A DNA stretch of 40,820 nt, from the NCBI GenBank assembly GCA_903895515.1, contig CAITUB010000117.1, forward strand, positions 1 through 40,820. The letters are read 5' to 3'. This DNA is from an uncultured Acidimicrobium sp. GTDB taxonomy: Bacteria > Actinomycetota > Acidimicrobiia > Acidimicrobiales > Ilumatobacteraceae. The notes below the pieces were generated by a model. That model was not told where the DNA came from and did no database searches. It saw only the letters and a program-made list of their open reading frames with translations. A program made the position numbers and the translations under genes. The stretch's first letter is position 1, and every line of letters starts with the position of its first letter. Shown piece by piece: positions 34,945 to 38,860 of the stretch.

Positions 34945-36843
34945 CTAGATGGATTTGAGAAATTGCACAACCTCTGCAAACTCAATCGTTCGCTTCATCG
35001 GTGGCAACGTGGAAACGAGTTTTTTACCGTAGCCCTTGGTTGCAAGTCGTGGATCCAAAATTGCAACGACACCTGAGTCCTTGCGTGAACGGATGAGGCG
35101 ACCAGCAGCCTGTGCAAGTTGTGTCGCTGCAAGTGGAATATCGATCTCGCTAAACGATGCCTTCCCAATTTCGTCGCGTCGTGCGCTGAGCAATGGGTCG
35201 TCTGGCCGTGGGAAAGGGATCTTGTCAATGACAACAAGGCTGAGGGTTTGTCCAGGGACATCAACACCCTGAAAGAACCCTGCAGTCGCAAACAGGCAAG
35301 ATGACTCCTCGGAGGCGAATGCATCAACGAGGGCCATTTTCGGCAAGTCATCTTGACGCCAGATCTTGAATTCAAGTCGCCTGGTCATCTCGTCTGCGGC
35401 CGCATGCATGGCGCGGTATGTGGTGAATAACGCAAGAGTTCGACCTTGGGCTGCATTGATCAATTTTTCTAACTCATCGTGCACTGCGTCATCTCTGCGT
35501 GAATCATTCGGCAATGGCAGATGCTTCGCGCAATACAAAAGTGCAGAATTTTCATAATCGAAAGGGCTACCGACATCAATTGCATCAACATCGTCTTCCT
35601 CAAGACCCACCCGAGCCGGCATTGCTAGTGGAATGGTTGCACTCGTAAGGATTGCGGTTCGCTTTGACCACACGCCGCTGTGCAACGTAGGGCCGACATG
35701 GAGTGGAGCAAGTTCAAGAACAGGGCGATCTTTGCTTCCGCTAACAAAAGCCACCGTTCGTGATCCGGCTGTCAGTGAGCCGTCGATGACGTCAATCATT
35801 CGATTACTGAGCGTTTGGCCACGGAGAATTCGCTGTTTCGCAGACTCGTCGTTACTGGAAATTGCCTTCAGACCTGAAACAGCTTCATCAATTTTGAGCC
35901 GCAACCGAGCGAGTACATCTTGAATATCGTCGGGGAGCGGAAGAGGTACTCGTTTGTCAATGTCTCCAGCTATGTAGCCTCCAAATTCAGTCGCTAGTTG
36001 TTGTAACGATCCTGTCAACGCGTCATCTCTTACGATTGAGCGGAGGGCGCTAATGACGTGCTGGATGCTTCCAGGGCTAATGGCCATGCTTACCGAAGCG
36101 CTCATCACATCTTCAAGTTGATGTGCCTCGTCAAAAATGACTACATCGTGTTCGGGCAGAAGCGCGCCATCAGTTGCGACATCTAGCCCATAAATGTGTG
36201 TATTAACAACAATGACATCGGCAACAGAAGCGAAATCTCTGGCACGTTCCGCAAAACATGTATCTCCGGACGGACACCTACTTGCTCCCGGGCATTCGTC
36301 GCTACCAATACTGACGTGACGCCACGCTGCATCTCGAGGACTCCAAGATAAATCGCCTGAATCGCCGGTGTTCGTAGTCTCGGACCAAGCAACAAGTTTG
36401 TCAATATCGGATTTCACTTGAATGCTGAACTCTTGAAGATCGAGCTTGTGCTGTTTTGGCTCGCGAATTTCGGCGATGCGTTGTGCGCAGAGATAGTTAT
36501 TGCGTCCTTTAAGAACCGCCCACGTGATATCGCGACCGATAATTGGAGTGAGCGCTTGAGACAACACGGGAAGATCGTGTTTAGCGAGTTGATCTTGCAA
36601 TGCCTTGGTGTACGTAGAAACGACGATGCGTTTGCCAGACGCAATCGCAGGCACGAGGTATCCCAGGGTTTTTCCCGTTCCGGTTCCTGCTTGAACAATT
36701 AAGTGGCGCTCATTTGCAATTGCGTCTGCGATTGCAGTGGCCATGGTTACCTGACCTGAACGGGCTTCCACGTTGGGAAGCGTGTCAACGACTGCCTGGA
36801 GAAGATCTACGACGTCATGTTCGTTGGGTGCTTTAGGCGACAT
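34945..36843 (-). CDS. DinG/XPD-like ATP-dependent DNA helicase
   Basis: VQAGTGTGKTLGYLVPAI; FeS-type cysteines CPGASRC..GDTC; VIFDEAHQLEDV; AAGRLIRSRKDSGVVAILDPR. Confidence 0.9.
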   Translation of the reverse strand: MSPKAPNEHDVVDLLQAVVDTLPNVEARSGQVTMATAIADAIANERHLIVQAGTGTGKTLGYLVPAIASGKRIVVSTYTKALQDQLAKHDLPVLSQALTPIIGRDITWAVLKGRNNYLCAQRIAEIREPKQHKLDLQEFSIQVKSDIDKLVAWSETTNTGDSGDLSWSPRDAAWRHVSIGSDECPGASRCPSGDTCFAERARDFASVADVIVVNTHIYGLDVATDGALLPEHDVVIFDEAHQLEDVMSASVSMAISPGSIQHVISALRSIVRDDALTGSLQQLATEFGGYIAGDIDKRVPLPLPDDIQDVLARLRLKIDEAVSGLKAISSNDESAKQRILRGQTLSNRMIDVIDGSLTAGSRTVAFVSGSKDRPVLELAPLHVGPTLHSGVWSKRTAILTSATIPLAMPARVGLEEDDVDAIDVGSPFDYENSALLYCAKHLPLPNDSRRDDAVHDELEKLINAAQGRTLALFTTYRAMHAAADEMTRRLEFKIWRQDDLPKMALVDAFASEESSCLFATAGFFQGVDVPGQTLSLVVIDKIPFPRPDDPLLSARRDEIGKASFSEIDIPLAATQLAQAAGRLIRSRKDSGVVAILDPRLATKGYGKKLVSTLPPMKRTIEFAEVVQFLKSI

Positions 36844-37525
36844 GGACCAACTTGAGTGCGTTATCTATTTCATGTGCGTCGAAGTCTGGCCAGGTGCGCT
36901 CGGTGAAGTACACCTTCGCTCCCTTGATTTGCCACAAAAGGAAATTGGAAATTCGAGATTCTCCGGAGGTACGAACAACTACGTCAACAGGAGGTAGCTC
37001 TGGAGCGTACAACTGGCTGGAAATTTCCTGTGGTGAAATGTCATGAGCGGATTGCTGGTTGGTGCGCGCGCGTTGAGCGGCTCGAAGCAACTCGGCACGA
37101 CTGCCATAGTCGAAAGCAACAGTCAGCACCATGCCTGTGTTGTGTGCGGTGTCGTCAATGGCTTGCAAAATTGCTCGTTGGATGAATGCAGGTGTTTTGG
37201 ATCCAGGCTCGTCGAATGGCCGACCAATCCATTGGATGCGCACGTTATTGGCATTGAGTTCTTCAATTCGACCAAAGAGACGCTTGTGCAATGAAAGAAT
37301 GTGTTTCACCTCGGCGGGTGGGCGGACCCAGTTTTCTGTGGAAAATCCAAAAACCGTAAGCCAGCCCACATTGCGTGTGGCGCAAACTCGTACGACCTCG
37401 GCCAAATTGTCTTCGCCTGCTGTGTGGCCCTCGGTGCGGGGGAGTCCGCGTCGTTTCGCCCAACGTCCATTGCCGTCCATGATGCAGGCGATATGGATGG
37501 GAGATTCGTGATTCACCAAGTCCAT
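36833..37525 (-). CDS. uppS: Isoprenyl (undecaprenyl-type) diphosphate synthase, catalytic subunit, lacking the C-terminal RxG tail
   Basis: CIMDGNGRWAKRRGLPRTEGHTAG; FGFSTENWVRP; VRTSGESRISNFLLWQ. Ends ...WPDFDAHEIDNALKLVHVA with no RRFGG. Start likely 37525 (ATG), alternatively TTG 37567. Confidence 0.92.
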   Translation of the reverse strand: MDLVNHESPIHIACIMDGNGRWAKRRGLPRTEGHTAGEDNLAEVVRVCATRNVGWLTVFGFSTENWVRPPAEVKHILSLHKRLFGRIEELNANNVRIQWIGRPFDEPGSKTPAFIQRAILQAIDDTAHNTGMVLTVAFDYGSRAELLRAAQRARTNQQSAHDISPQEISSQLYAPELPPVDVVVRTSGESRISNFLLWQIKGAKVYFTERTWPDFDAHEIDNALKLVHVA

Positions 37526-37574
37526 TCCGAACACCTTACTGATGTGGACCGCAATGGCGTGCGACAATAGTGAT

Positions 37575-38144
37575 GTGGCTGACGGTTCATCATTGCAACA
37601 TGTGCTTGTTGTCGGAGGATCTCTAGATCAGTGGAAGACAATGACATCCTCCGATTGGACGCAGTATGTCGCAACGTTGCGATCATCTGTGGAGCAAGTT
37701 GGCGCTCGGTGGCTCACGGTGTATCCATATTCTGGTATCTCAGACGCGGAAGATGATGACCAACTCATTCGAAAAATCGCAGAATCGTGCGAAGCGGAAT
37801 CCATCGAGGGGAAACTGCTTCTTCGCGGTAACACATCGGTAGTGATTGATATTTGTGCAGATGGACAACTGCGGTTTGTTCGCGCGGTTAACGGTATGTC
37901 GACAGAAAAGATCACTGAAAGGAATTTGGCGAGCGCGATTTTGCAACCAGCGTCCAGTGAGCCAGATCTAGTCGTGATTTTCGGAGAGCCAACACAGTTG
38001 CCTCCTTCGCTGGTGTGGGAACTTGCGTACAGCGAACTGGTCTATCTCAACTCGCCTTGGCCGCTTTGCAACAGTGATGACATTGAGTTAGCGATAAACG
38101 ACTTTCAGCGGAGAGATCGTCGATTTGGCGGTGTCGATTCATGA
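37575..38144 (+). CDS. Degenerate cis-prenyltransferase paralogue (NgBR/Nus1-like pseudo-enzyme)
   Basis: DLVVIFGEPTQLPPSLVWELAYSELVYLNSPWPLCNSDDIELAINDFQRRDRRFGG matches the UppS C-terminal fold. The N-terminal HVLVVGGSLDQW replaces HVAIIMDGNGRW. Start GTG 37575 (GACAAT 6 nt upstream) or ATG 37542. Confidence 0.75.
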   Translation: MADGSSLQHVLVVGGSLDQWKTMTSSDWTQYVATLRSSVEQVGARWLTVYPYSGISDAEDDDQLIRKIAESCEAESIEGKLLLRGNTSVVIDICADGQLRFVRAVNGMSTEKITERNLASAILQPASSEPDLVVIFGEPTQLPPSLVWELAYSELVYLNSPWPLCNSDDIELAINDFQRRDRRFGGVDS

Positions 38145-38860
38145 CGCTGTATCGCGATAAGGGAATAGTGCTGCGGAGTTACAAACTTGCTGAATCTGAT
38201 CGCATCGTTGTCCTGATGACCGAGCACCACGGAAAAGTTCGCGCCGTGGCCAAGGGAATCCGTAAGACGAAATCGAAGATCGGTGCTCGGCTAGAACCAA
38301 TGAGTCACGTAGACGTGCAGTTGTATAAGGGAAGGGAACTAGACACGGTTTCTCAGGTTGAGTTGATCGACTCGTCTGCGCGACTGCACAACAATCTCGA
38401 CAAACTGACTCAAGGCATGTCGATGCTTGAAGCAGTAGATCAAATTGCAGAGGACAGAGAACCATCGCCGCATTTGTACCGCATGTTGCAGGGGGCGTTG
38501 AACGCACTGATGGAACAGGAGTCTCCTGTCATGCTGGCGTCTTTTTACTGGAAGTTGCTGGCAGCCGAGGGAGTGAGCCCGCAGGTGCAATTGTGCGTTG
38601 GTTGCGCAAGTACCGAAGATCTCGTTGCATTCGACATTTTTCAAGGAGGGGTGCAATGTCGCTCCTGTCGCACGGGAATTAGTATCTCTCCGCCAGCAAT
38701 TGATTTATTGCAGCAAGTTCTTGGCGGTCAACTCAAATTCGCTCTATCTCAGCCCGAATCTGCAGCAAGTTTCGAAATATCTCAACTTGCAACTCAGGCA
38801 ATGGAACATCACATAGAACGACGATTGAGATCAGTGGCAATGTTCAGTCCCCGTCACTAG
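38141..38860 (+). CDS. recO: DNA repair protein RecO
   Basis: YRDKGIVLRSYKLAESDRIVVLMTEHHGKVRAVAKG; zinc cysteines CVGC...CRSC; ATGA overlap with upstream CDS. Confidence 0.92.
   Translation: MTLYRDKGIVLRSYKLAESDRIVVLMTEHHGKVRAVAKGIRKTKSKIGARLEPMSHVDVQLYKGRELDTVSQVELIDSSARLHNNLDKLTQGMSMLEAVDQIAEDREPSPHLYRMLQGALNALMEQESPVMLASFYWKLLAAEGVSPQVQLCVGCASTEDLVAFDIFQGGVQCRSCRTGISISPPAIDLLQQVLGGQLKFALSQPESAASFEISQLATQAMEHHIERRLRSVAMFSPRH

Follow-up and report, generated by a model that had tools for sequence, protein, structure and literature searches.

A divergent pair of UppS-fold genes between dinG and recO

The window analyzed here is a 40,820-nucleotide stretch of a contig from an uncultured Acidimicrobium sp., in which two genes related to undecaprenyl-diphosphate synthase (UppS; PF01255) are divergently arranged between a dinG-like helicase gene and recO (Table 1). 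The minus-strand gene encodes a UppS-type cis-prenyltransferase, hereafter referred to as the catalytic copy, and the plus-strand gene encodes a catalytically degenerate protein of the same fold, hereafter the partner. In the order, the ancestral layout is uppS between dinG (−) and recO (+), on the strand of recO. In the family to which the pair belongs, the partner sits in exactly this position, on the same strand as recO; the catalytic gene is inserted between the partner and dinG in the opposite orientation. The two genes were found on opposite strands in all 113 distinct pair loci. Their adjacency is not strict, since they lie on separate contigs in one genome (G323) and are separated by 0.6–2.3 kb at five loci (L158, L164, L114, L191 and L202).

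Table 1. Features of the divergent locus (window coordinates).
Feature	Position	Strand	Remarks
dinG-like helicase	34945..36843	−	left flank, conserved synteny
uppS stop region/dinG start overlap	36833..36843	−	stop codon 36833–36835
UppS/cis-prenyltransferase, putative catalytic subunit	36833..37525	−	230 aa; full active site, no C-terminal RxG tail
Interface motif WQIKGAK	36914..36934	−	Tyr211 to Gly, Glu213 to Lys
Loop specific to the catalytic copy, GRPFDEPGSKTP (GRPFDEPG..TP)	37190..37225	−	after strand D
Extended −10-like element, TGCGACAAT	37560..37568	+	6 nt 5′ of the partner GTG (suggested leaderless start)
Putative accessory, NgBR-like subunit	37575..38144	+	189 aa; UPPS fold lacking catalytic residues; probable GTG start, longest ORF from ATG 37542
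WELAYSE	38016..38036	+	interface Tyr and Glu kept
RDRRFGG	38112..38132	+	C-terminal RxG tail kept; proposed to complete the catalytic active site in trans
recO	38141..38860	+	bounds the ancestral uppS locus on the right; 4 bp overlap with the partner

The catalytic copy retains the active site and lacks the C-terminal tail

Residues are numbered according to E. coli UppS, with the sequence checked against PDB 1jp3. The translation of 37525–36833 (−) contains the motifs MDGNGRW, FSTENW and RTSGESRISNF, as an earlier note on this DNA had stated, together with LLWQIKGAKVYF, and it terminates with WPDFDAHEIDNALKLVHVA. Its PF01255 match covers profile positions 1–209 of 219, the final 10 positions being absent. 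The same note held that the usual RxRRFGG tail is missing and that none follows in frame; indeed, the stop codon lies within the start region of dinG and no RRFGG-like sequence was found downstream of it in any of the three frames. The AlphaFold2 model of the protein (pLDDT 87) had its best Foldseek matches with E. coli and other UPPS (TM 0.85).

Among the 114 catalytic copies from the family, residues D26, N28, R30, R39, H43, S71, E73, N74, R77, R194, E198, R200 and S202 are kept in every sequence, the C-terminal tail is present in none, and none of the 70 named copies ends with RRFGG. The single-type UppS of the order retain R239, R241, R242, G244, Tyr211 and Glu213 in 41 of 41 sequences, and Phe243 in 31 of them. 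An assembly or annotation artefact, in which a frameshift removed the tail, might be suspected, given that the source genome is a draft of 293 contigs. However, the 114 catalytic sequences, which come from many assemblies and include those of three single-contig genomes (L102–L104), end alike, while all 41 single UppS keep the tail. The loss cannot therefore be attributed to a frameshift, the event that the earlier note had named as fatal to its proposal, and with no tail in any frame we consider this vanishingly improbable explanation to be already refuted.

In the interface motif (WQIKGAK in place of WQxAYxE), the earlier note had reported the replacement of Glu by Lys. The Lys residue is present in the window, but it is not a fixed feature of the family: position 213 is occupied by K in 47 of the 114 copies, A in 26, R in 19, E in 7 and other residues in 15. 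A fixed Glu-to-Lys exchange was rejected because of this variation, which points instead to a drifting site freed of constraint. The loss of Tyr211, an addition to the earlier note, is general (114/114, with Gly in 78).

The loop following strand D has 16 residues in 114/114 catalytic copies vs. 12 or 13 in 41/41 single UppS, and is a possible site of contact with the partner.

The partner retains the tail and lacks the catalytic residues

The partner matches PF01255 only with its C-terminal part (profile 133–219). The probable start codon is GTG 37575 and not ATG 37542. Just 5′ of the partner start, 75 of the 113 loci have an extended −10-like motif (TGnGANAAT or a close variant), 65 of them with a 6-nt gap, as against 0.2% in shuffled sequences; at this distance, the motif points to a leaderless partner mRNA and to GTG 37575 as the start codon. 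The opposite strand of the element reads TATTGT, making it a possible shared divergent promoter.

The residues W207, Y211, E213, R239, R241, R242, F243, G244 and G245 were found in 100% of the sampled partner rows, and RRFGG forms the C-terminal ending in 78/78 named partners, whereas R194, E198 and S202 are missing from every sampled row. The assertion that the neighbor retains both the tail and the interface Glu thus holds throughout the sample, with WELAYxE and RxRRFGG invariant. The model of the partner (pLDDT 90) has a diverged UPPS fold with UPPS as top matches (TM about 0.6, E 6e-9). The partner is closer to bacterial UPPS than to NgBR, since its profile matched E. coli UPPS with an E value of 1e-21 vs. 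7e-6 for human NUS1.

Both genes are under purifying selection, with dN/dS values of 0.04–0.07 for the catalytic gene and 0.07–0.13 for the partner (Nei–Gojobori method, against five relatives; dS is high and partly saturated). The low dN/dS, together with a length of 189 aa that is maintained across 24 genera, shows that the partner is no decaying relic.

Distribution of the pair

In the source genome, which is 98.7% complete, the pair are the only PF01255 genes. No further UppS was found in it, so the second complete enzyme that the earlier note, jointly with inactivity of the pair, would have counted against its proposal did not appear. Three matches to MraY/WecA-type polyprenyl-phosphate transferases, a family whose members use the lipid product of UppS, were found in this genome.

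In a survey of the same GTDB family, PF01255 was found in 212 of 222 genomes. A partner profile built from 27 rows yielded a strong match (E ≤ 1e-30) in 198 of these 222. Among the 79 near-complete genomes, 76 had such a match, one had split matches and two (G322 and G402) had a tailed UppS. Wherever the partner is present, the catalytic PF01255 match ends at about profile position 208–217. The tail-less catalytic copy and the partner co-occur, and the family genomes with a tailed UppS lack both. Found in 24 genera, the divergent pair is characteristic of a bacterial family and not just of the source genome. Most of the named pair loci in GTDB genomes carry the labels Ilumatobacteraceae, Ilumatobacter, Acidimicrobiaceae or acIV, and the family is probably the Ilumatobacteraceae. 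The bacteria of the pair-bearing family are common in aquatic environments.

Across the roughly 60 families in the rest of the order, the listed UppS span the full profile (1–219), contig-end fragments aside. Beyond Actinomycetota, the distribution is based on one pattern scan of GTDB species, from which the best 80 matches were listed. Two candidates from outside the family were rejected. In family f31 of the order, the additional PF01255 match is a full-length paralogue and not a partner, and the short UppS of family f68 of the phylum is internally shortened, with its tail present. Family f31, together with genome G080 of f29 (loci L083–L087), has a second UppS paralogue, full-length but divergent, that may be a short-chain cis-prenyl synthase.

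Natural controls within the family

Two genera of the family depart from the common arrangement. In genus g155 (G402 and G403), both pair genes are absent, about 65 bp lies between the facing starts of dinG and recO, and one tailed UppS is located elsewhere. This genus is nested beside the pair-bearing g156 in the glyS tree (96/91), and represents a clean loss of both pair genes. Genus g148 (G322) is also nested (95/84, glyS tree) and has a single tailed UppS at the ancestral position, without a partner, a case that consists of one draft assembly and could be explained by locus replacement, ancestral retention or assembly chimerism. From the states of g155 and g148, we conclude that genomes have either the tail-less copy with its partner or the tailed enzyme alone. 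A further genome with a tailed UppS, G311 (72% complete), was left out as a third control because its pair locus is missing, recO and glyS being without a match.

The tailed UppS at L118 (G402), L119 (G403) and L124 (G311) constitute a distinct, fast-evolving type located away from the dinG–recO locus, which was apparently gained in two or more parts of the family.

Origin of the two genes

The most likely ancestor of the partner is the resident UppS of Acidimicrobiia, as suggested by the locus, strand and signature residues of the partner, which keeps P189, E208, L209 and V215, all typical of the order. At positions 208/215, the catalytic copy has Q/Y, as in other classes and E. coli, vs. E/V in the partner and the order. 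The catalytic copy, we propose, was inserted as a second UppS, through duplication or acquisition, and lost its tail afterwards.

The catalytic copies form a clade with maximal support (100/100) and a long stem, outside the UppS of the order. However, a tree placing this clade with the UppS of the order was not rejected (p-AU 0.77), nor was the other tested grouping. The catalytic copy could be a local inverted duplicate of the resident uppS, followed by subfunctionalization and involving no foreign gene. To this account, which concerns the origin only and is compatible with a heteromeric enzyme, we give just under even odds: both genes adjoin at the ancestral uppS locus and the topology it predicts withstood the test, whereas the clade is not nested within the UppS of the order and has a long stem, and its Q/Y residues differ from those of the partner and the order. 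Alternatively, the pair may be an independent bacterial counterpart of DHDDS/NgBR, in which a second, possibly foreign, UppS entered beside the resident one, the resident was demoted to a dead tail donor, the incomer lost its tail and the pair became the only carrier-lipid synthase of the family; we hold this scenario tentatively, at somewhat less than an even chance.

A putative heteromeric undecaprenyl-diphosphate synthase

We suggest, with a probability of about 0.86, that the two divergent genes each specify one subunit of a single, obligately heteromeric undecaprenyl-diphosphate synthase (cis-prenyltransferase), with a DHDDS/NgBR-like mode of action but a separate evolutionary origin. The minus-strand protein would hold the active site, and the plus-strand protein would be a catalytically dead subunit of the UppS fold that dimerizes with it. 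The RxRRFGG tail of the partner and the Tyr and Glu residues of WELAYxE would reach into the substrate site of the catalytic subunit, in the manner of NgBR toward DHDDS, and the pair would be the sole synthase of a C55-type carrier lipid. Completion of the active site in trans is suggested because the losses are divided between the two proteins as they are between DHDDS and NgBR. The obligate hetero-oligomerization put forward in the earlier note agrees with all of the results and gains support from reciprocal and invariant losses across the genera with the pair, from co-occurrence, from the lack of a second UppS, from purifying selection on both genes and from their joint absence where a tailed UppS is present. 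We infer a physical complex and a dependence of activity on both subunits from the same patterns.

As in heteromeric cis-prenyltransferases, there are two separate UppS-fold proteins, one with the active-site residues and without RxG (114/114), and the other without catalytic residues and with a C-terminal RxG. The catalytic copy shares D26, R30, R39, H43, R77, R194, R200 and S202 with homodimeric bacterial UPPS, but has neither an RxG tail nor the Tyr211/Glu213 residues of its own. The interface Glu that persists in 7 of the 114 catalytic copies argues against the heteromeric reading, as does the incomplete adjacency of the two genes. Furthermore, tail loss alone is no proof of dependence, because the tail-less MM_0014 of Methanosarcina mazei, which has no RxG motif, is active by itself as a homodimer (PMC8131916). 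By analogy, the tail-less UppS might act alone as a homodimer, its neighbor being a degenerate relic or having another role (regulator, chaperone or membrane tether), and the human DHDDS homodimer does have some activity, about 400-fold below that of the heteromer (PMC7573591). We consider this improbable. The length and low dN/dS of the partner across the genera speak against a relic, the absolutely conserved residues of the partner are those lost by the catalytic copy, and the tail-less copy and the partner are jointly absent where a tailed enzyme is present.

Relationship to known prenyltransferases

The heteromeric reading places the pair alongside the eukaryotic heteromeric cis-prenyltransferases DHDDS/NgBR (NUS1), yeast Rer2/Nus1 and plant CPT/CPTL (Lew1), in which the catalytic subunit also lacks the RxG tail. 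The parallel with DHDDS/NgBR drawn in the earlier note was borne out by sequences checked against the PDB chains: the interface motif of DHDDS, WQTSHSC, has no Glu, and DHDDS has no tail, whereas NgBR (WHIRLTE...EQRLG) keeps both Glu and RxG. The bacterial pair divides the losses in the same way, but more strictly. Like NgBR, the partner lacks catalytic residues and resembles the enzyme family mainly in its C-terminal part. However, it has no N-terminal membrane anchor, starting 8 residues before the first beta strand, and the catalytic copy lacks the C-terminal helix-turn-helix domain of DHDDS, its chain stopping at the final UppS-fold helix. The product of the eukaryotic heteromers is dolichol, whereas that of the bacterial pair is presumably the essential cell-wall carrier lipid. 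Unlike the eukaryotic accessory subunits, the partner, judging from its locus and signature residues, comes from a bacterial UppS.

Homodimeric UPPS (E. coli and M. tuberculosis Rv2361c) share the fold (TM 0.85) and the active-site residues of the catalytic copy, but have their own tail and Tyr211/Glu213, which here reside in a separate dead subunit. HexA/HexB and HepS/HepT are unrelated to cis-prenyltransferases in fold and stereochemistry, and their small subunit fixes chain length and donates no active-site tail. They are bacterial heterodimeric trans-prenyl synthases in which a catalytic subunit is paired with a non-catalytic one (PMC7839719). The M. mazei pair MM_0618/MM_1083 is likewise a prokaryotic heteromeric cis-prenyltransferase, which serves glycosyl carrier lipids, but is archaeal (Emi 2019, as cited in PMC8131916).

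The RxG of human NgBR crosses the interface, steadies the loop that holds FPP and binds the IPP-site phosphate via backbone nitrogens (PMC7573591). In enzymes of the homodimer type, the RxG motif provides an Arg for the water-mediated coordination of Mg2+ and a Gly whose nitrogen touches the acceptor phosphate (PMC8131916). According to one review, cis-prenyltransferases are homodimeric in bacteria and plants, and the heteromeric form belongs to fungi, metazoans, plants and animals (PMC7839719). We found no bacterial heteromeric cis-prenyltransferase in a search of the open literature, a scope that leaves priority less than firm. The split-enzyme arrangement, known from humans, yeast, plants and one archaeon, appears to be new for bacteria as far as we could find.

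Mutation of the NgBR RxG causes human disease. The bacterial pair could serve as a simple model for the contribution of NgBR to the active site. Small and soluble, and with both states, pair and tailed single enzyme, occurring within one family, it may also help to reveal how and why a homodimer turns into an obligate heteromer.
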